From the NCBI GenBank assembly GCA_016186175.1, contig JACPMB010000004.1, forward strand, positions 1 to 56,750: 56,750 bases of DNA, given 5' to 3'. Below are positions 8,080-45,705 of this stretch, piece by piece. This DNA is from Candidatus Peregrinibacteria bacterium (GTDB lineage Bacteria; Patescibacteriota; Gracilibacteria; Peribacterales; Peribacteraceae). The notes beneath the pieces are model-generated. The model was not told where the DNA came from. It worked only from the letters and a program-made list of their open reading frames with translations, and did no database searches. How positions within the stretch are numbered: the stretch's first letter is position 1; each line of letters starts with the position of its first letter. The translations under genes and the position numbers were made by a program.

Positions 8080-8976
8080 ATGCGGCGGATTTTCGCATTG
8101 CCACTGGTTGTTATCATCGGCGTTATTCTTGTTGCTGCGTGCGAGAAGCCGGACACTCCTCTCCCCGTAGGCATCCAGACCGTTCACGGATATCTCCAGC
8201 CTGTCCCATTCTCCCTCAAGCGCCGCGGCACGCACGCTCTTTACTCAGGTTCCGGCGGGGAGATGATGGCGTACGCGGAAGGCATAGTCGTCAATCTGCG
8301 CCAGATCGAAAGGCAAGATGTCGAGGTGGAAGGCGTCTTTGAAAAAAACATTGTCCGGGACGATCTTCCTGTATTCGTTGTTCAAAGGGTCCTGCACGCG
8401 GCAAACGAGCAGATGCGCCGGTGGACGATTCCTGCGCTGGGCCTTTCGGTCGCACTTCCAAAAAGCTGGAAGGGCGGCATCAAAGGCGGTTCCGCGATGT
8501 TCACGGCATCTGGGTCCTCGGTGCCAGTTTTGACAATCACCGTGCGCAAAGCCCCTCCAGCCGCGCCGGAGAATCCGCTTTACGGCCCGCTCGCGGCAGG
8601 CAACCCGGGCGAACTCATGACGGTTGGATCGCGGAAGGCGACGGCAGTTGTTTCCGTCGCGGACCAGACTTGGACGGCTCGCGTCGCTCCGGCTCCGTCC
8701 GGTAAATCCGAAACAATATTTTCGTTCGCGCTGCAATCATCGTTGAAAATTGAACTGCAACAGCCGCTCTTTCGGAACATTCTCAAAACTGTTGAATTCA
8801 ATTCGGCCGCTTTGCAAACATTACAGTCTGAATCATCGGTTTCGGGTGCGGCAGATTCACGTGCGTCGGGCGAAGGCGCCGCATGCGGCGGAGTGGCCGG
8901 AATTCTCTGTCCGAAAGGCCAATTCTGCAAAATAACGGATTCCATCGGCGAATCCGGCGTCTGCACGAAGCGATAG
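8080..8976 (+). CDS. Lipoprotein with a C-terminal Cys-rich module
   Basis: A 298-residue protein. The N-terminus MRRIFALPLVVIIGVILVAAC is a lipoprotein signal with a lipobox ending in Cys21. A 150-200 residue extracytoplasmic domain follows, containing IPALGLSVALPKSWKG. The C-terminus has a compact four-Cys motif (ACGGVAGILCPKGQFCK ... SGVC), a pattern seen at the ends of several secreted CPR proteins. No enzymatic function is recognised. The frame extends upstream to 7918, but the signal peptide fixes the start at 8080. It is flanked by two related 20-bp palindromes. Confidence 0.72.
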   Translation: MRRIFALPLVVIIGVILVAACEKPDTPLPVGIQTVHGYLQPVPFSLKRRGTHALYSGSGGEMMAYAEGIVVNLRQIERQDVEVEGVFEKNIVRDDLPVFVVQRVLHAANEQMRRWTIPALGLSVALPKSWKGGIKGGSAMFTASGSSVPVLTITVRKAPPAAPENPLYGPLAAGNPGELMTVGSRKATAVVSVADQTWTARVAPAPSGKSETIFSFALQSSLKIELQQPLFRNILKTVEFNSAALQTLQSESSVSGAADSRASGEGAACGGVAGILCPKGQFCKITDSIGESGVCTKR

Positions 8977-10469: not shown

Positions 10470-10559
10470 CTTTCCACATAATTTCCACATCGTATAAGCA
10501 GACCTTGTCAATATATGGCTGACAAAGCCAGCTTGTTTTCTTTTACTGTTTTTTCCACA
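10470..10559. promoter_or_regulatory. Three DnaA-box-like sites upstream of dnaB
   Basis: The 252-bp gap between recA and dnaB holds CTTTCCACA (10470-10478), ATTTCCACA (10481-10489) and TTTTCCACA (10551-10559). The last fits the TTWTNCACA consensus and the other two differ at one base. A/T-rich tracts and a TTGTCA-N9-TGACAA inverted repeat (10505-10525) lie between them. This could be a DnaA-controlled promoter or part of an origin; dnaA is not in the window. Confidence 0.35.
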
Positions 10560-10605
10560 GGCATACACTTCTTTCACGGCATGATTTTTTAATTTCTTTA
10601 TTCCG

Positions 10606-27599: not shown

Positions 27600-27739
27600 A
27601 AAGTATTCATTCCGCGTGATTTCGCGTTTTGTTTGGTGGAGCGCTTTCGAAAAAATCCGAACTGATTTTCGCGTAAACTGGCGCGGCGGCTGAAAAACCT
27701 TCGGGCTTGGGCAGCCGCCGCGCCTGCCGGACATCGCAG
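27600..27739. other. Left attachment junction (attL-like) of the 4.5 kb element
   Basis: Chromosomal sequence (the rplI flank) runs into the core TTGGTGG at 27633-27639, followed by a 100-bp element arm (27640-27739). The arm recurs inverted at 30477-30576 with one mismatch. It includes a 13-bp perfect stem (GGCGCGGCGGCTG/CAGCCGCCGCGCC). The first 15-20 bases left of the core loosely resemble the other element arm (CGAAATC and GAATG shared). Confidence 0.75.
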
Positions 27740-27766
27740 GACGATTTCCAACTGTTCTTTTGCGGC
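27740..27766 (-). repeat. 27-bp recombinase-gene fragment next to the left arm
   Basis: On the minus strand this is an exact 27-bp copy of recombinase coding sequence 30786-30812 (codons for AAKEQLEIV). It begins at the very base after the arm repeat ends. Confidence 0.85.
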
Positions 27767-27825
27767 CGCTCCTTATTGAGAGCATGAGCGAAAGATTTTG
27801 GTGTTCAACATAGCAAGTATTCTGG

Positions 27826-27831
27826 TACCAT
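27826..27831 (+). promoter_or_regulatory. -10-like hexamer of the endonuclease gene
   Basis: TACCAT, 6 nt before the ATG at 27838. Confidence 0.45.
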
Positions 27832-27837
27832 TAGCGC

Positions 27838-29001
27838 ATGGCTTATCACTCTGTAGACAAGCTCCAGAAGACACTGGCGAGTAAAGTTTTTTCTCACACG
27901 AAAGATGCAAAAAAGGCATCTGGCAGGGCACTTGGCACATTGGTAGAAATCATTACTTACTACCTTTTAAAGACATGGGGTCTCAACAATTACATCTCAA
28001 TTGAGAGGGGGCTCGAAGAGTACGGGAATCCTGAAATTACGCACAATGTTGAGTACTCACTGCATCCAGTGATGAGTAGCGTAAATATCTCAATTTCAAA
28101 AAAAACAAAACCGATTTCGTCAAATATCGTAATGAAGGCTCTGGAGGATGCTGGTTACGACCTCACTGGTTTTGAGAGAAAGAATAATTATCTGCTCAAT
28201 AATGGGGTTCTGCGCAATGCTTGTACCTTTGCCACATCAACAAATTCCTTTTTGCTTTGCAGCGTTAAGGAAGAAAAGGGCAGAAACATTATCCTTGAAA
28301 TTTTTGAACAGGCTCGCAAGCCGTATGCGATGTTTGAATGTAAACGAGTTGGTGTTGAGGATGGGATGAAAAAGGGGCCGCAGACCATAGAGAAAGCAAA
28401 ACAGGGAGCCTATGTCGCAAAAACAGCATCCTCACTCCAAAAAATCAGGACTGAATCCGGTGAAAAATACGGCATCATTTATCGCAGCGATGGCTCATAC
28501 ATCGTTGAGCCATATGTAGATCTAATGGAGAAGATCATCAGCTCAAATGACAAAGAATTGTTGAGAAGGTTTATTCTCACTGTTGGTGTTGTTAGCAATC
28601 ATGGAAACTGGTTTACATCAGGCAATCAAAACAAGGAATTGAGGGTGCTTGCACAGTCATATGACTGGCTCCTCTTTTTAACCGATGACGGTTTAGCGGA
28701 ATTCATCGAGAACTTACTATTGAAGCCATCGAAAGAATACCAATTGATTCGTGATACATTTCTTTCAAGTTACAAAAATGGAAAGAGGAAAAACCAATTT
28801 ACAAAGGTTCAAATGAATATTGATGCGGATGCAATTCTGCTCACATATTTTAAAAAGAATCTCGGAAAAATTGAGGGTTGGTTTAATATCATTTCTCCTG
28901 AGGAGAAATCGATTGCTACCCTAAAAAAGGAGCTGCAGGAACTCAGAACAAAAGACTGGAAAGGCATATTTAATCTGCCCATTACAACCTTTAAGTCATG
29001 A
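27838..29001 (+). CDS. Type II restriction endonuclease-like protein
   Basis: A 387-residue protein. A PD-(D/E)XK-like nuclease centre is visible around residues 156-200: ILEIFEQARKPYAMFECKRVGVEDGMKKGPQTIEKAKQGAYVA, with the E-x-K of FECKR. The GPQTIEKAKQGAYVA segment resembles those after the catalytic motif in some type II enzymes. Its stop overlaps the methyltransferase start by 4 bp, the usual tight coupling of a restriction-modification pair. The recognition site is unknown. Codon use is AT-rich compared with the flanks. Confidence 0.7.
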   Translation: MAYHSVDKLQKTLASKVFSHTKDAKKASGRALGTLVEIITYYLLKTWGLNNYISIERGLEEYGNPEITHNVEYSLHPVMSSVNISISKKTKPISSNIVMKALEDAGYDLTGFERKNNYLLNNGVLRNACTFATSTNSFLLCSVKEEKGRNIILEIFEQARKPYAMFECKRVGVEDGMKKGPQTIEKAKQGAYVAKTASSLQKIRTESGEKYGIIYRSDGSYIVEPYVDLMEKIISSNDKELLRRFILTVGVVSNHGNWFTSGNQNKELRVLAQSYDWLLFLTDDGLAEFIENLLLKPSKEYQLIRDTFLSSYKNGKRKNQFTKVQMNIDADAILLTYFKKNLGKIEGWFNIISPEEKSIATLKKELQELRTKDWKGIFNLPITTFKS

Positions 29002-29582
29002 CTGCTGGCCGTGCCGTCAATACTCTGAGCCAAGACTGGTGTACTCCGAAAAAGTACGTTGATGCTGTGAAAAAAGTTTTTGGAGGAAAAATAGATTTGG
29101 ATCCGTGCTCTAACACGCATTCAATTGTAAATGCCGCAACCGAGTACATGCTACCGGAAAAGGATGGCCTAAGAGACAGCTGGGATTTCCCGACAATCTA
29201 CGTGAATCCTCCATATGGTTCAGATAGGGAAAGAGGAACGAGAATAAAAGACTGGCTTGCTCGCTGTGCATCTGCATATGAGGATCATGGCTCCCAAGTC
29301 TTGGCACTCGTCCCCGTTGCTGCAAATACATCACACTGGAAGAGTTTTGTATTTACCAAAGCACATGGCATTTGCTTCCTCTACGATACAAGACTGCGAT
29401 TTCTCGAAAATGGACAAGATTCTGGCAAGGGTGCGCCGATGGCTTGTGCAATGATTTATTGGGGAGGCGATTTCAAAAAGTTTTATGACGTTTTCATAAA
29501 CCATGGCGCAGTAATTGATATTTCTCATCTGAGAGGAGAGCGTATTGAAAAGGACAGGAAAAAAATCCCTATGTTTTCTTAG
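28998..29582 (+). CDS. Dam-like (phage-type) adenine-N6 DNA methyltransferase
   Basis: A 194-residue protein with the layout of phage N-6-adenine methyltransferases: N-terminal DWCTPKKYVDAVKKVFG, then IDLDPCSN, the catalytic NPPYGSD motif (about 71-77) and the late segment GKGAPMACAMIYWG. It is presumably the modification partner of the upstream endonuclease and starts inside its stop (ATGA). The short length is normal for this family. Confidence 0.82.
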   Translation: MTAGRAVNTLSQDWCTPKKYVDAVKKVFGGKIDLDPCSNTHSIVNAATEYMLPEKDGLRDSWDFPTIYVNPPYGSDRERGTRIKDWLARCASAYEDHGSQVLALVPVAANTSHWKSFVFTKAHGICFLYDTRLRFLENGQDSGKGAPMACAMIYWGGDFKKFYDVFINHGAVIDISHLRGERIEKDRKKIPMFS

Positions 29583-29634
29583 CAACTCCAACAGAGAGGA
29601 TTCATTGGATTTCATATGTGATTTTTATGGCAAT

Positions 29635-30381
29635 TTATCTATTTCCAGTCAGTAAGTGATATTCTTTGATGAGAGGATTGACCACTTGAAATACGATGAA
29701 CACCCAACCTATTAAAATGCCCAGAAAGACGTAGAGTTGTATTAACTTTGGTTTCACAGTTATGGTTGTGTCTTCAATAAAAACCTCATTCTCGTAAATA
29801 GAAGGATCTTCTAACGATGGCACAAGTAATTTATCCATTTTGAGTTGCTCAAAAAGTTCTTTGTCCATTTTTTCCTCGATCAAAAGAGGCATTAATCTCA
29901 GGCGCCCCTGTGCCCAATCAGGTATCTCCTCACATGCGCCTTGAAAAACTTCAAAACCTTTCCTCGAATCAGCCTCAATCCGTAGTTTTGAAGGTAATTT
30001 GTTATGTTCCTCTAATATGATCTCCTTCACGTCATTTTCAACATTCCTCCCGTTATCAATAGAAGTCCGCCGATCAAAACAGACTTTGTATTTTAACAAT
30101 GGGTTTAATTTACCAATAATTTCTCCGAAATTTCTCGTAAGATCTCTATCCGAATCAATATATTTTTGACCGACACAATCATCGCCATCGTAAACTCTCC
30201 CAACGGGAGCAACATTCTCATTGAGCCGGGAAGCAGTTACAAACAATCTTCCGCCACAGCGATGATCTACTACGTATCTTGTTCCTACATGCTGTGGAAC
30301 AAGAAAAAGATAAAAAAGTATTGGTGGTAAGAAATAAATTCCGAAGAACATTTTTGTACCCTTGTTTTCTATAGAACACAT
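29635..30381 (-). CDS. Two-helix membrane protein of unknown function
   Basis: A 248-residue protein with hydrophobic segments near both ends (about 11-29 and 216-238) enclosing a mainly polar domain with cysteine pairs (DHRCGG, DDCVGQ, YKVCFDRR, QGACEEI). This suggests an extracytoplasmic domain held by two helices. No family is recognised. It is cargo of the integrated element, in opposite orientation to the restriction-modification pair. TACAAT lies 6 nt before the ATG; an internal ATG at 30351 is an alternative. Confidence 0.6.
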   Translation of the reverse strand: MCSIENKGTKMFFGIYFLPPILFYLFLVPQHVGTRYVVDHRCGGRLFVTASRLNENVAPVGRVYDGDDCVGQKYIDSDRDLTRNFGEIIGKLNPLLKYKVCFDRRTSIDNGRNVENDVKEIILEEHNKLPSKLRIEADSRKGFEVFQGACEEIPDWAQGRLRLMPLLIEEKMDKELFEQLKMDKLLVPSLEDPSIYENEVFIEDTTITVKPKLIQLYVFLGILIGWVFIVFQVVNPLIKEYHLLTGNR

Positions 30382-30387
30382 GAATGC

Positions 30388-30393
30388 ATTGTA
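30388..30393 (-). promoter_or_regulatory. -10-like hexamer of the element membrane-protein gene
   Basis: TACAAT on the minus strand, 6 nt before the ATG at 30381. Confidence 0.5.
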
Positions 30394-30408
30394 CTTTATA
30401 GTAATCAG

Positions 30409-30427
30409 AAAAACCCGCCGCTGGCGG
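30409..30427 (-). terminator. Rho-independent terminator-like hairpin, leftward
   Basis: On the minus strand CCGCC-AGC-GGCGG is followed by GTTTTT. It would stop transcripts leaving the internal junction copy toward the membrane-protein gene. Confidence 0.5.
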
Positions 30428-30476
30428 AAACAAAGTTCGTTCCGATCGTTTTCAATCGGGCTCTTTTGCGGTTTTG
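30428..30476 (-). repeat. Two recombinase-gene fragments next to the internal arm copy
   Basis: On the minus strand, 30476-30457 is an exact 20-bp match to recombinase coding sequence 30830-30849. After 10 nt, 30446-30428 is an exact 19-bp match to 32034-32052. The first fragment abuts the arm repeat at 30477. Confidence 0.8.
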
Positions 30477-30655
30477 CTGCAATGTCCGGCAGGCGCGGCG
30501 GCTGCCCAAGCCCGAAGGTTTTTCAGCCGCCGCGCCAGTTTACGCGAAAATCAGTTCGGATTTTTTCGAAAGCGCTCCACCAATCACGAAATCCGCGCGA
30601 ATGCGCGAGCACGCGCCAGCCGATCGCGGCTTCCCACTGCACCGCGTTCCCTTCC
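30477..30655 (-). other. Internal complete junction copy (attP-like), inverted
   Basis: Read on the minus strand this is the recombinase 3'-end arm (79 bp including the core, identical to 32054-32132), core TTGGTGG (30583-30577), then the 100-bp arm seen at 27640-27739. It equals the junction expected for the circular element, but lies inside the element in reverse orientation, just upstream of the recombinase gene. Confidence 0.75.
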
Positions 30656-30658
30656 GTA

Positions 30659-30676
30659 CGCCAGCGGCGGGCTTTT
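30659..30676 (+). terminator. Terminator-like hairpin, rightward
   Basis: CGCC-AGC-GGCG followed by GGCTTTT on the plus strand, 16 bp before the recombinase start. With the hairpin at 30409-30427 it encloses the internal junction copy. The T run is short. Confidence 0.35.
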
Positions 30677-30680
30677 CTGG

Positions 30681-30686
30681 TACCCT
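30681..30686 (+). promoter_or_regulatory. -10-like hexamer of the recombinase gene
   Basis: TACCCT, 6 nt before the ATG at 30693, placed just after the terminator-like hairpin. Confidence 0.35.
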
Positions 30687-30692
30687 GCGACC

Positions 30693-32192
30693 ATGAAAGT
30701 CATTGCTTACTGCCGCAAATCCACAGAACAGGATGATCGCCAGATTCTCTCGATCGACGCGCAGCTTAAGGAGCTGCGCGATTATGCCGCAAAAGAACAG
30801 TTGGAAATCGTCGCCTCGCTCCGCGAGGCCAAAACCGCAAAAGAGCCCGGGCGAACCGAGTTCGCCAGAATGTTGGAAATTATCGAGAAAGGAGGAGCCG
30901 ATGGCATCCTCGCATGGCATCCCGACAGGCTCGCCAGGAATAGCGTGGATGGAGGACAGATCATGCATCTTCTGGACACTGGCAAGCTCAAAACGCTGAA
31001 ATTTCCCACGTTCTGGTTTGAGCCGACACCGCAGGGGAAATTCATGCTCTCCATCGCATTCGGCCAGTCCAAGTACTACGTGGACAACCTTGCCGAGAAC
31101 GTGAAGCGAGGCATGCGCGAGAAAGTGCGCCGAGGCGAGTGGACGTGGCCTGCTCCGCTTGGCTTTGTCAACAACCGAGAGAAGCGGAACATCGAGCCGG
31201 ACCCCGAGAAAGCGTCCATCGTTCGCAAGGCATTTGAACTCTATGCCACCGGTGTTCATACGCTTCTCTCACTCGGGAACGAACTCACTCGCCTCGGTTT
31301 ACGCACACGGAAAGGCAAGGTCTTGCCGGTGTCCAATGTCCAGAAGATGCTCAAGCACCATGCGTACTACGGTGTTATCAGCATGAACGGGGAGCTGTTC
31401 CCCGGCGCGTTCGAGCCAATCGTGAGCAAGAGACTGTTCGACGAGGCGCAGGAAGTCATGCACAGCAAAAGCAAGCCGAAACGCAGGAGGAAACATGATC
31501 TCCCGTTCACGGGCTTCTTGCACTGTGCGACTTGCACTTGCGCGATAACTGCGGAAATCCAGAAAGGCCATCACTACTACCGCTGTACGCACAAGCGCGG
31601 CCCCTGCGATCAGCGTAAATATGTGCGTGAGGAAGGGATGCTTGAGGAAGTGCGCAAAATCGTCGAACGAGTCTCACTGCCCGATGAGTGGGCGGACAAC
31701 ATGCTCAAAGAACTCGACAAAGAGGAAATCGAAGGACAGTCAGACCATCGGGCAACTGTTCAGCGCCTTGAAGATGAGCGGAAGGACATCGATCAGAAGC
31801 TCGATACTCTCCTCGATCTGCGGCTGGAAGGAGCGCTCGACACCGGAGAATATTTTGCGCGGAAGAACGTGCTGGTGGCTCGTAGGGTTTCGCTCAATCA
31901 GGACATCAAGGACGCTGAACAGAACGGCAGCAATTGGCTCGAACCCATGCGAGAGATGATTGTATGCAGTAAGGAAGCCAAGAAATTGCTCTCGACGGAA
32001 AATTACGCGGAATTTCCAACATTCCTGAAACGCATCGGAACGAACTTTGTTTTGGAAGGGAACGCGGTGCAGTGGGAAGCCGCGATCGGCTGGCGCGTGC
32101 TCGCGCATTCGCGCGGATTTCGTGATTGGTGGGCCAGGGTGGATTTGAACCACCGACCGCCGGTTTATAAGTCCGGAACTCTAACCAACTGA
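30693..32192 (+). CDS. Large serine recombinase
   Basis: A 499-residue site-specific recombinase of the resolvase-recombinase family common in CPR genomes. The catalytic domain has YCRKSTEQDDRQILSIDAQ (catalytic Ser about residue 9) and WHPDRLARN. A recombinase domain (about 150-260), a zinc-ribbon region (FLHCATCTCAITAE ... YYRCTHKRGPCDQ) and a coiled coil (about 355-420) follow. The last 20 codons are tRNA-Ile sequence read antisense, and the stop lies inside the tRNA gene. The frame is open to 30474, but Met at 30693 starts the conserved domain. It presumably integrated this element. Confidence 0.93.
   Translation: MKVIAYCRKSTEQDDRQILSIDAQLKELRDYAAKEQLEIVASLREAKTAKEPGRTEFARMLEIIEKGGADGILAWHPDRLARNSVDGGQIMHLLDTGKLKTLKFPTFWFEPTPQGKFMLSIAFGQSKYYVDNLAENVKRGMREKVRRGEWTWPAPLGFVNNREKRNIEPDPEKASIVRKAFELYATGVHTLLSLGNELTRLGLRTRKGKVLPVSNVQKMLKHHAYYGVISMNGELFPGAFEPIVSKRLFDEAQEVMHSKSKPKRRRKHDLPFTGFLHCATCTCAITAEIQKGHHYYRCTHKRGPCDQRKYVREEGMLEEVRKIVERVSLPDEWADNMLKELDKEEIEGQSDHRATVQRLEDERKDIDQKLDTLLDLRLEGALDTGEYFARKNVLVARRVSLNQDIKDAEQNGSNWLEPMREMIVCSKEAKKLLSTENYAEFPTFLKRIGTNFVLEGNAVQWEAAIGWRVLAHSRGFRDWWARVDLNHRPPVYKSGTLTN
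32054..32140. other. Right attachment junction (attR-like)
   Basis: The recombinase 3' end (32054-32125) meets the core TTGGTGG (32126-32132), which continues into tRNA-Ile. The first 79 bp recur inverted at 30577-30655. Confidence 0.75.
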
Positions 32193-32203
32193 GCTACTGG
32201 CCC
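32127..32203 (-). tRNA. tRNA-Ile (anticodon TAT)
   Basis: 77 nt on the minus strand with acceptor GGGCCAG/CTGGCCC, T arm GGTGG-TTCAAAT-CCACC and encoded CCA. The anticodon loop is CTTATAA, giving TAT for the AUA codon. The last pair of the anticodon stem is an A-A mismatch. It is the integration target of the serine-recombinase element and overlaps the recombinase reading frame. Confidence 0.9.
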
Positions 32204-32230
32204 GTACAAGATCAACGAGTGCAAAAGGAG

Positions 32231-32286
32231 CTAACCAACTGCTTGCCCACCGTAGCCCGGAGGCGAAGGTGGGAGCTACTGGCCCG
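32231..32286 (-). repeat. Duplicated tRNA-Ile 5' fragment split by a hairpin
   Basis: The 24 bases of the tRNA-Ile 5' end (CTAACCAACTG plus AGCTACTGGCCCG on the plus strand, 32181-32204) recur at 32231-32241 and 32274-32286. They are split by a 32-bp palindromic insert with CCCACC/GGTGGG arms. Confidence 0.75.
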
Positions 32287-32363
32287 CACAACTGATACGC
32301 ATTGGAGCAGGCGGCTTCATCGTATCACAGCGCCACGTCCGCTTCCCGTTCCGTTTTTCCTTA

Positions 32364-44055: not shown

Positions 44056-44592
44056 GACATTGCGAAGTGTGAGGCAGCCGTCCTTTGATGAATAGGGCAC
44101 ATGTCCCCCTCGCAAGACGAGGAGAGGACGGATAGAAGCGTATCGAAGATCTTCGGCATCCGTGTGGTCGCCACTTCTCGACGGTTTCCGATAGGGAAAG
44201 GAGGCGAGAGGCGGCAACCGTCAGCTATGTCTCACTCGTCATATTCCTTCTTGATCTCCCGTGGAAAAACACCGTCAAGGGTATATTTCCTCAGACTGAG
44301 GCCACGATCATAGAAGTGTGGTGGAGCAGTAGGGATCAATTTCGAACTCGACAGACCTCGGAAAGTGGATCCACTTGAACGATCAGAAAAGCTTATCTGC
44401 TTGAGGAATTCCTTGGATTTTGTGAAAAATATTCTGAAAGCTACTCCAACGATGGAAAGTATTCTTACACTATGAAAGCTTGGGGGTCGTCAATGAGCTG
44501 TAGGGATCAATATTGAACTTTTCATGCGCTAAATCCCCCAAAAGGTGACAATAGCGAGGGCCAGTGTTTTGAAATCAGTTAAAAACAGCTCT
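44056..44592. other. Gene-poor stretch with possible gene debris
   Basis: No convincing intact gene is present. TAGGGATCAAT(T/A)T(C/T)GAAC occurs twice in direct orientation (about 44331 and 44503). Between them a short frame (about 44374-44517) reads AYLLEEFLGFCEKYSESYSNDGKYSYTMKAWGSS, which looks like a decayed coding fragment. Nothing else is recognised. Confidence 0.4.
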
Positions 44593-44790
44593 TTAGTACA
44601 AACGCGTTCCATCTTCGTCGATCTTTATCACATTTGGATCATCAAGTGGTTCTTGCTCCTGAATCTCCTTCATGAGGATCAGCAATCCTATGGCATTGGT
44701 GAAGTCAAAGTTTCGCCATTTCTCAGGAAGTTGCTTTCTAAAGTCGTCCATAGTATGCAGACCATAGAGCTCCTTAAAAAGAATGTTCAA
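44593..44790 (-). CDS. Small hypothetical ORF or gene remnant
   Basis: A 65-residue frame (MNILFKELYGLHTMDDFRKQLPEKWRNFDFTNAIGLLILMKEIQEQEPLDDPNVIKIDEDGTRLY). Amino-acid composition is protein-like, but no family is recognised. It could be the C-terminal piece of a longer lost gene. It lies downstream of the membrane-protein gene on the same strand. Confidence 0.35.
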   Translation of the reverse strand: MNILFKELYGLHTMDDFRKQLPEKWRNFDFTNAIGLLILMKEIQEQEPLDDPNVIKIDEDGTRLY

Positions 44791-44839
44791 GCGAAGACGC
44801 TTCTATGTCAGTAGATTGCAAGTCCTATGCTCAAATGAA

Positions 44840-45412
44840 TCATTTTTTCTTGCGCCGAAAAATTGCATCACTTTCAAGACGGGGATTCATCACGATCCAA
44901 CGATATATAGGGAAACTTAAAATAAGGGCATAGATGGTATTTATTATCGCACGCATAAATGTGTATGGCATTTGTTCCTTGAGTGCTGAAAGTATGGGTT
45001 GACCATATTGAAGAGGTCCGACGGGAACTCGATAAATAATGTCGAAGAGAATTGATCCGATGAATGCATAAAGAACATAACCAAGGATTTTTACTTTATT
45101 TTTCTTAAGTAATAATGCGGCCAAAGCAAGTACAACGGCATAAGCAAAACCTTGAACGAATATCCAGTTAGGAAGATCTGGTCTCCAAATAGCGAAGAAG
45201 GAGATACTGTAAATCAGGGTATATATAGCACTGCCAAGCACACCTAATTTTTCTGCGAAAGGCATGAGTATCGCGATCATTGGATGAGCATCGCCTAGCG
45301 GGAAACCGCCAATAAAAATGGAATACGGCTGTAACGGGACAAGAATGATTGCAAAGCAAATCAACCATCCCAGAATGCATTTTATCCACATCTGACGAAA
45401 AGTAGATAGCAT
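44840..45412 (-). CDS. Five- to six-helix membrane protein, possibly ECF S-component-like
   Basis: A 190-residue hydrophobic protein with about five or six membrane helices and a basic C-terminus (RRKKK). The small size, helix number and central GYVLYAFIGSILFDIIYRVPVGPLQYGQPI segment recall substrate-binding S components of energy-coupling-factor transporters, but the match is only structural. No ECF ATPases are nearby. Function is not assigned. Confidence 0.55.
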   Translation of the reverse strand: MLSTFRQMWIKCILGWLICFAIILVPLQPYSIFIGGFPLGDAHPMIAILMPFAEKLGVLGSAIYTLIYSISFFAIWRPDLPNWIFVQGFAYAVVLALAALLLKKNKVKILGYVLYAFIGSILFDIIYRVPVGPLQYGQPILSALKEQMPYTFMRAIINTIYALILSFPIYRWIVMNPRLESDAIFRRKKK

Positions 45413-45536
45413 GTGACAAGGGGTACTCGGTGTATCTATCGTATCTGTTTTCTTTTCAGAGAGCTAGTGTGGTGATTCTGAACGAATGTGCAATCCAGAA
45501 ATTTAAACAAGATTGATTTGAACCCATTGTGCAAAG

Positions 45537-45622
45537 TCGCACAAAGTGTGCGGACTCGTTCAAAGTGCATCAAAAAAGCCCCAGTTGCTCATTGTGAGCA
45601 AACTCGATCAAAGTGTGCAAAG
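45537..45622. repeat. Short CAAAGTG repeats upstream of tRNA-Ala
   Basis: CAAAGTG/CAAAGT words recur about five times, including the paired phrases ACTCGTTCAAAGTGCATCAA (45565-45584) and ACTCGATCAAAGTGTGCAAA (45602-45621). No gene is seen in 45413-45629. Confidence 0.5.
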
Positions 45623-45629
45623 TTGTCAT

Positions 45630-45705
45630 TGGTGGAGCTGAGGGGACTTAAACCCCTGACCTCTGCAATGCGAATGCAGCGCTCTATCAGCTGAGCTACA
45701 GCCCC
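45630..45705 (-). tRNA. tRNA-Ala (anticodon CGC)
   Basis: 76 nt on the minus strand with acceptor GGGGCTG/CAGCTCC (one G-T pair), D arm GCTC...GAGC, anticodon stem CTGCA/TGCAG around TTCGCAT, T arm AGGGG-TTTAAGT-CCCCT and encoded CCA. Reads GCG codons. Confidence 0.94.

Follow-up and report, generated by a model that had tools for sequence, protein, structure and literature searches.

What kind of mobile element carries, between its two ends, a third attachment site that is complete but inverted? The question is raised by a locus in a 56,750-nt stretch of Candidatus Peregrinibacteria DNA (contig JACPMB010000004.1, forward strand; hereafter the window), where an integrated element moved by a large serine recombinase (LSR) occupies positions 27633-32132 at the CCA end of a tRNA-Ile(TAT) gene. 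The element and its targeting are well supported, and we regard it as almost certain that it belongs to the LSR elements that read a tRNA. The account of the whole locus that we favor, and hold to be moderately probable, is a cassette-carrying, tRNA-reading LSR family that combines an inverted attP, an exchange of the recombinase tail and a fold of the single strand.

Structure of the element

Three copies of the core TTGGTGG, two on the plus strand at the ends and one on the minus strand inside, organize the element (Table 1). By itself this 7-mer is found at a frequency near chance (9 copies in the window against 4.6 expected, 9 being reached in 5 of 100 shuffles), so that the core is weak evidence against a chance origin of the junctions; the long arms, however, are decisive, and chance was rejected. 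These arms form two inverted repeat pairs, armA (27630-27739 and 30477-30586; 110 nt, 98% identity) and armB (30577-30655 and 32054-32132; 79 nt including the core, 100% identity). ArmA bounds the cargo module (27633-30583) on both sides, and armB does the same for the recombinase module (30577-32132). The internal site that separates the two modules, taken in the minus-strand direction, is armB-core-armA, that is, a complete attP identical to the junction expected in a circle, and its orientation is inverted relative to attL and attR. The right-hand core supplies the final bases of tRNA-Ile(TAT), a minus-strand gene, and the G+C content of the cargo is 39-41% against about 55% in the surroundings. 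The recombinase shows the catalytic resolvase, recombinase and zinc-ribbon domains of the LSRs (Pfam Resolvase, 5.7e-23; Recombinase, 5.6e-14; Zn_ribbon_recom, 4.5e-6) and matches phrog_95 (7.9e-80).

A first-pass annotation of this DNA had proposed an LSR element with readable attL and attR at a tRNA end and with AT-rich cargo. The cores, the long inverted arms, the position of the tRNA, the three Pfam domains and the base composition bear this out. It had also noticed that an internal copy joins both arms, which is correct in that the order armB-core-armA is that of the circle, but it omitted the inverted orientation and the presence of a whole attP. Likewise, the conserved two-module design, the recombinase frame across the core and the antisense pieces of the recombinase gene in the cargo module, all described below, were missed.

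The empty site expected on the same grounds was found in part. In G002, a genome of the same genus, the order 24650-type gene, rplI, convergent tRNA-Ile(TAT) and 32302-type gene is kept, and the site between rplI and the tRNA has no element hallmarks, the tRNA end reading CTATTTGGTGGGCC. The target is thus unoccupied in one syntenic relative, while the core is shared by attL, attR and the tRNA end in the window, but the allele is not base-exact, as an unrelated 1.3-kb spacer lies between rplI and tRNA-Ile. G001 and G003 retain only the tRNA and the downstream gene.

Two further observations concern the flanks. The chromosomal flank of attL (27608-27632) is similar to armB at about 16 of 20 positions, with a GATTTCG motif, but 5 bp farther from the core; it is a remnant of an earlier arm or a chance resemblance. 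The 5' end of tRNA-Ile is duplicated 82 bp away (32191-32209 and 32273-32291; GAGCTACTGGCCCG), perhaps as a remnant of an older event.

Distribution of the family

Full-length relatives of the recombinase occur in many genomes. A scan limited to a single genome per species yielded 298 relatives, and 80 of them were retained. These loci, all from assemblies and mostly from metagenome-assembled genomes (MAGs), belong to Patescibacteria and to a few MAGs labelled Omnitrophota, Marinimicrobia, Latescibacterota and Spirochaetia, with identities of 47-90%; loci reached by two search routes are partly the same record (e.g. L141 and G070:C12). Upstream of the recombinase, 71 of the 80 carry its 3' end a second time in inverted orientation; most of these 71 are at tRNA 3' ends. 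The count is 72 less L185, whose inverted repeat stems from tRNA genes on both sides and is spurious; this locus was kept in the sets used for patch matches (it has none), codon constraint and the hairpin.

Among the Peribacterial members, elements at tRNA-Lys, Gln, Tyr, Arg, Glu, Val, Pro, Ile and Ser have the layout in common, and in most of them the inner copy of armB measures 76-92 bp. Where a tRNA lies near the recombinase 3' end, there is always one that faces the core with its 3' end from the opposite strand. Recombinases at 26-39% identity often adjoin tRNAs as well, but lack the repeats, so that the double attP seems to be a character derived within a single clade. The inverted repeats, about 180-220 bp with the recombinase 3' end included, are nearly 100% identical within recent elements and differ between elements; the arms are 99.4% identical in recent elements and decayed in old ones.

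Target choice

In LSRs, the motif read by the zinc-ribbon domain (ZD) is shifted 5 bp towards the center in attB as compared with attP (Rutherford et al., PMC3783163). The same spacing is found here. The zinc-ribbon motif of attB is the T-loop of the tRNA, its counterpart in the element is in armA, and the T-loop-like heptamer of armA is exactly 5 bp farther from the core than that of the tRNA (attP minus attB = +5) in 47 of the 56 elements scored. In 6 more a competing motif scores equally, and in most or all of these there is also one at +5.

The element core agrees with the terminal six bases of the target tRNA. On the recombinase tree we counted 43 changes of anticodon against only 17 of this hexamer, which indicates that the enzyme follows the hexamer and not the identity of the tRNA. 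The closest relatives of the window element (about 90% identical) are at tRNA-Lys with the same hexamer. Probably, therefore, the T-loop is what the zinc ribbon recognizes, and the core hexamer decides which tRNAs qualify.

Recombinase and tail exchange

In the elements checked, the recombinase frame is open across the core. When integrated, the gene lacks the armA-encoded tail and its frame continues into the antisense of the tRNA. A junction with armA, whether that of a circle or that of the inner site, instead extends it by a conserved tail, SAFEKIRTDFRVNWRGG followed by a stop in the window element and KIRTDF, KIITDF, ELVRTHF or KIARTEF in others. A tail KI[RI]TD[FL] or a near variant (..RTxF) follows the core in all 21 Peribacterial elements checked and in most others. 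All four third bases occur in the Thr codon of the tail while the amino acid is conserved. This combination of synonymous variation and conserved residues points to selection on the protein, and hence the tail is probably expressed in some state of the element. As the coding sequence for its last residues spans the attachment core, the recombinase would be complete only as a circle. The inner attP holds a second tail-coding copy that adjoins the recombinase gene. We think it likely that the exchange of tails carries functional meaning, and replacement of the tail upon integration may act as an off-switch.

Antisense copies in the cargo module

In nearly all complete elements, short stretches of the element's own recombinase gene recur in antisense, at up to four sites. 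Across the family these patches correspond to nucleotides about 93-120 (N), 138-157 (N2) and about 1335-1362 (C) of the gene, and to about -42 to -16 (U). In the cargo module the N copy abuts the outer armA and the N2 copy the inner armA, followed by C and U. Among exact matches no shorter than 16 nt, 63 elements yielded 199 in antisense and 16 in sense, and 188 of the 199 antisense matches fell in the four patches. For N2, C and U, an element's patch was more similar to its own copy than in any of 2000 permutations. Furthermore, 53 variable patch columns, counted without elements below 80% match, agreed in at least 85% of elements as against 26-86% expected. Within the gene, synonymous codon identity is 0.81 in C, 0.76 in N, 0.68 in armB and 0.65 in N2, compared to 0.51 over the gene. 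Codons about 323-334, outside the four patches, also display a raised value (0.77).

The hairpin between N and N2 has its six Watson-Crick pairs in 73 of 85 cases. Four of the pairs are dictated by the protein sequence; the two free ones covary almost perfectly (CG/TA and CG/GC/TA). In total, the hairpin pairs comprise 489 Watson-Crick, 5 G.T and 5 A.C.

The patches average 89-95% identity in elements with fresh and with decayed arms alike. As the arms decay while the patches hold steady, the arms seem to be homogenized by recombination and the patches to be maintained by selection on pairing. That the copies are remade at each jump was ruled out, since patch identity does not track arm identity and since the C copy has the ancestral AAAACGATC in the window element and in G068, where the recombinases have AAACGCATC.

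The regularity of the patches also bears on one alternative, namely that two ordinary tandem elements had their middle site inverted by accident, or that the assembly is at fault. If inverted at the U repeats, the locus would indeed become two plain tandem elements, and simple cargo-only elements exist (G005:C1, 2779-4100). However, about 60 elements, assembled independently and in many cases lying within long contigs, have the same layout and patch coordinates, which refutes this as a general explanation and makes it hardly credible.

Alternatively, the patches and the inner armB could silence the recombinase mRNA, for instance upon transcription entering from outside. All the copies are antisense, U overlaps the promoter or leader of the recombinase, and minus-strand transcripts driven from the tRNA would traverse the recombinase in antisense and reach many minus-strand cargo genes; in addition, the minus strand has a slight bias towards G.T among the patch mismatches (58 unique contexts as compared with 29). 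As a driver of patch conservation, however, RNA wobble finds no counterpart in the hairpin, whose few mismatches show no wobble excess, and patches placed 3' in the gene and at the cargo's far end are not what translational control would lead one to expect. We consider such RNA control distinctly unlikely.

A third possibility is integration of a single strand, as in CTX phage and integrons, whereby single-stranded DNA (acquired for example by natural transformation) would fold so that the inverted attPs make one duplex site. The four patches are all antisense, with fixed lengths and a consistent geometry at the junctions, the hairpin between N and N2 covaries, patch conservation is independent of arm decay, and CTX phage is a precedent for integration of a single-stranded genome (PMC3089051). 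Serine recombinases cut both strands, though, and on a folded substrate this would leave capped ends in need of further processing; nor was a single-stranded form seen in the assemblies. On balance this route of integration appears rather unlikely.

A model of excision and integration

The cassette-carrying, tRNA-reading family that we favor would work as follows. The element would excise as a circle, a form predicted from the arms, with two identical inverted attPs and a full-length recombinase, armA tail included. Integration at the attP on the 3' side of the recombinase would exchange this tail for tRNA antisense and leave the enzyme off or altered, whereas the spare inverted attP would keep a tail-coding copy beside the gene. 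Either excision or a flip of the recombinase module over the 79-bp repeats would then restore the full-length enzyme; intramolecular attP x attP recombination has been reported for some LSRs (PMC3783163). That the inverted attP serves to restore or retain the tail is possible, at somewhat less than an even chance. As for the patches and the hairpin, they would hold the single-stranded element in a defined fold that pairs both inverted attPs into one duplex site, with a four-way junction of N, N2, armA and the hairpin and a three-way junction of U, C and armB, joined by the attP duplex. This fold is our leading, yet unproven, explanation for the patches, and we see the case for and against it as evenly balanced. 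More tentatively, the locus may represent a new class of element whose DNA (or RNA) is selected to fold as a single strand, so that patches, hairpin and attPs build the active attP, and whose recombinase is completed only in the circle.

Inverted attPs could also be understood from a circle like the yeast 2-micron plasmid with its Flp recombinase. The recombinase (or RecA) would flip the halves, homogenize the repeats and possibly amplify the circle, integration being only one phase. The near-identity of the repeats within recent elements and their divergence between elements fit this idea, as does the attP x attP reaction mentioned above. On the other hand, no replication gene was recognized in the cargo examined (the methyltransferase and two proteins of the window, and the other cargo sampled), free flipping predicts both orientations at tRNAs whereas it is always the recombinase 3' end that is found there, and the antisense patches would be left unexplained. 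Such a plasmid-like circle is in our opinion unlikely.

Several points weigh against the tail exchange and fold that we prefer. No excision-factor gene was identified. All the complete tRNA-adjacent recombinases examined have their 3' end at the tRNA, so that the flipped (on) state is unobserved and may be transient or non-existent. Neither a base-exact empty allele nor a circle was seen in the assemblies, and a search for circles among public records gave four loci with partial or weak matches in IMG/VR and, among the matches listed, only identities below 30% in PLSDB. Finally, the minus-strand G.T lean of the patches is absent from the hairpin (5 vs 5), so that pairing of either strand, as RNA or as DNA, is conceivable.

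Table 1. Coordinates of the element and its features in the window (rec, recombinase gene).
Feature	Position	Strand	Remarks
armA, outer copy	27630..27739	+	T-loop-like zinc-ribbon motif TCCGAAC; conserved GCGGCGGCTG...CAGCCGCCGC hairpin; codes the C-terminal tail of the recombinase in its predicted circle form, SAFEKIRTDFRVNWRGG and stop
attL core TTGGTGG	27633..27639	+	
Antisense copy of patch N	27740..27766	-	rec nt 94-120; abuts armA
387-aa protein	27838..29001	+	Invariant FECK motif; putative restriction endonuclease partner
Dam-type DNA N6-adenine methyltransferase	28998..29582	+	PF05869 1.7e-17; PADLOC oMTase; phrog_111 4.7e-26
248-aa hypothetical protein	29635..30381	-	Membrane segments predicted by eye
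Antisense copy of patch U	30406..30426	-	rec -33..-13
Antisense copy of patch C	30428..30454	-	rec about 1334-1360; 24/27 identical
Antisense copy of patch N2	30457..30476	-	rec 138-157; abuts inner armA
armA, inner inverted copy	30477..30576	-	98% to outer copy
Core of internal inverted attP	30577..30583	-	
armB, inner inverted copy of recombinase 3' end	30584..30655	-	79-nt repeat with core, 100%
Patch U	30659..30679	+	5' of recombinase start
Large serine recombinase	30693..32192	+	Integrated frame crosses core into tRNA antisense; 499 aa, stop 32190-32192
Patch N	30786..30812	+	In recombinase gene
Hairpin GCCTCG-CTCCG-CGAGGC	30813..30829	+	17 nt, between N and N2; covariation
Patch N2	30830..30849	+	In recombinase gene
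Patch C	32026..32053	+	Directly 5' of armB; strongest synonymous constraint of the gene
armB, outer copy	32054..32125	+	3' coding end of recombinase
attR core TTGGTGG	32126..32132	+	Common to tRNA 3' end
tRNA-Ile(TAT)	32127..32203	-	Target; T-loop supplies attB zinc-ribbon motif

Cargo genes and variant loci

The first-pass annotation had described the cargo of the window element as a restriction-modification pair with a membrane protein. The modification half is firm (Table 1), while the restriction half is deduced from a motif and from a conserved pairing. The 387-aa protein gave no family match in Pfam, PADLOC, NCBIfam and PHROG searches and its single-sequence structure model was unusable (predicted local distance difference test, pLDDT, 34), but its FECK motif is PD-(D/E)XK-like. 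In addition, a Dam-type methyltransferase and a FECK protein, each about 55% identical to those of the window, are paired in the same order in a distant genome of genetic code 25, which supports a functional pair. The 387-aa protein is thus the probable restriction endonuclease partner of the methyltransferase. In the same searches, the 248-aa protein gave no convincing family match.

The cargo delimited across elements amounts to 128 open reading frames (ORFs), nearly all mutually unrelated, and is cassette-like. Many Patescibacterial modules consist of one ORF in 0.6-1.3 kb. In the annotation sample, chosen mainly from larger modules, restriction-modification genes are frequent: NgoPII with a C5-methyltransferase, CfrBI with Mrr and a methyltransferase, type III, IIG, and an EcoRI-type methyltransferase with GmrSD.

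A few loci depart from the common layout. In L165, L172 and L178 a different attP-like arm stands in place of the tRNA beyond the recombinase 3' end; tandem arrays are possible. In L185 a relative of the recombinase lies between tRNA-Ala genes with different anticodons (8799-8872 and 10521-10595). The cargo-only element G005:C1 (L048) reads armB-U-ImmA-like peptidase-N-armA and has a degenerate tRNA-Tyr-like end, and G011:C11 is a mini derivative at a tRNA-like end. The window itself contains a candidate second, non-autonomous element at tRNA-Ala(CGC) (44319-45635), A+T-rich and with one ORF for a membrane-like product of 190 aa. It has an attL-like TGGTGGAGC at 44319 with a TTCGAAC motif at attP spacing, and TTGGTGG at 45629, at the tRNA end; its ends, when joined, read ..CHWWSSRDQFRT.., similar to the circle tail.

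Implications

In the literature searched (open access, with subscription papers and preprints outside the scope) we found no account of a double-attP family at tRNA ends, and little on how Patescibacteria, whose genomes are very small, acquire and exchange genes. The family described here would provide them, phylum-wide, with an integron-like supply of cassettes at tRNA ends, restriction-modification systems included. T-loop plus six-base end is a simple solution for targeting many tRNAs, and completion of the recombinase would be tied to the circular state. The analysis also exposes a strongly conserved pairing structure within a coding gene, whose role is directly testable. Recombinases with a readable target code may in turn become useful tools.

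Relation to known systems

With the large serine integrases of phages and integrative and conjugative elements (PHROG 95), the recombinase shares the Resolvase, Recombinase and zinc-ribbon domains and the 5-bp shift of the motif between attP and attB. The Patescibacterial family differs from them in that the attB half-site is a tRNA T-loop, the targets are fixed by the 6-nt acceptor end, the recombinase frame crosses the core, and there is a second, inverted attP. A second comparison is with the ssrA islands of Dehalococcoides (DsiB), for which the sections of PMC3146451 considered here describe a CcrB-like LSR, a CCA-ending tRNA-like target (ssrA), an att site within the recombinase gene and variable cargo. 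According to the same sections, those islands have a six-gene integration module with a second small recombinase, tandem arrays in direct repeat and one target gene, and neither an inverted attP nor antisense patches are among the features described there (PMC3146451). The targets in our case are tRNAs and the window element has a single recombinase, so it is not an island of that type.

Staphylococcal cassette chromosome (SCC) elements, which use CcrA, CcrB or CcrC, resemble the family in their cassette logic and restriction-modification cargo, and weak CcrB, CcrA and CcrC matches below the NCBIfam cut-offs were obtained. A score of 85.6 against a cut-off of 900 bits and a tRNA target argue against an SCC element; the target of SCC is rlmH, and we know of no tRNA targeting or inverted internal attP in that group. 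The yeast 2-micron circle is split by two identical inverted recombination sites and its recombinase gene abuts the repeat. The window element, if circularized, would likewise hold two inverted attPs, but Flp is a tyrosine recombinase and the 2-micron circle a replicating plasmid that does not integrate at tRNAs.

Should the proposed fold be real, there would be a further likeness to attP(+) of CTX phage and to integron attC, in which a duplex site arises from intrastrand pairing, as the attP of CTX phage does; these systems differ in using tyrosine recombinases and single-strand exchange. Lastly, in archaeal integrases of the SSV type the att site lies within the integrase gene and integration disrupts it. 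There too the enzyme is a tyrosine recombinase, and the gene is split in two, while in the Patescibacterial element its tail is exchanged.

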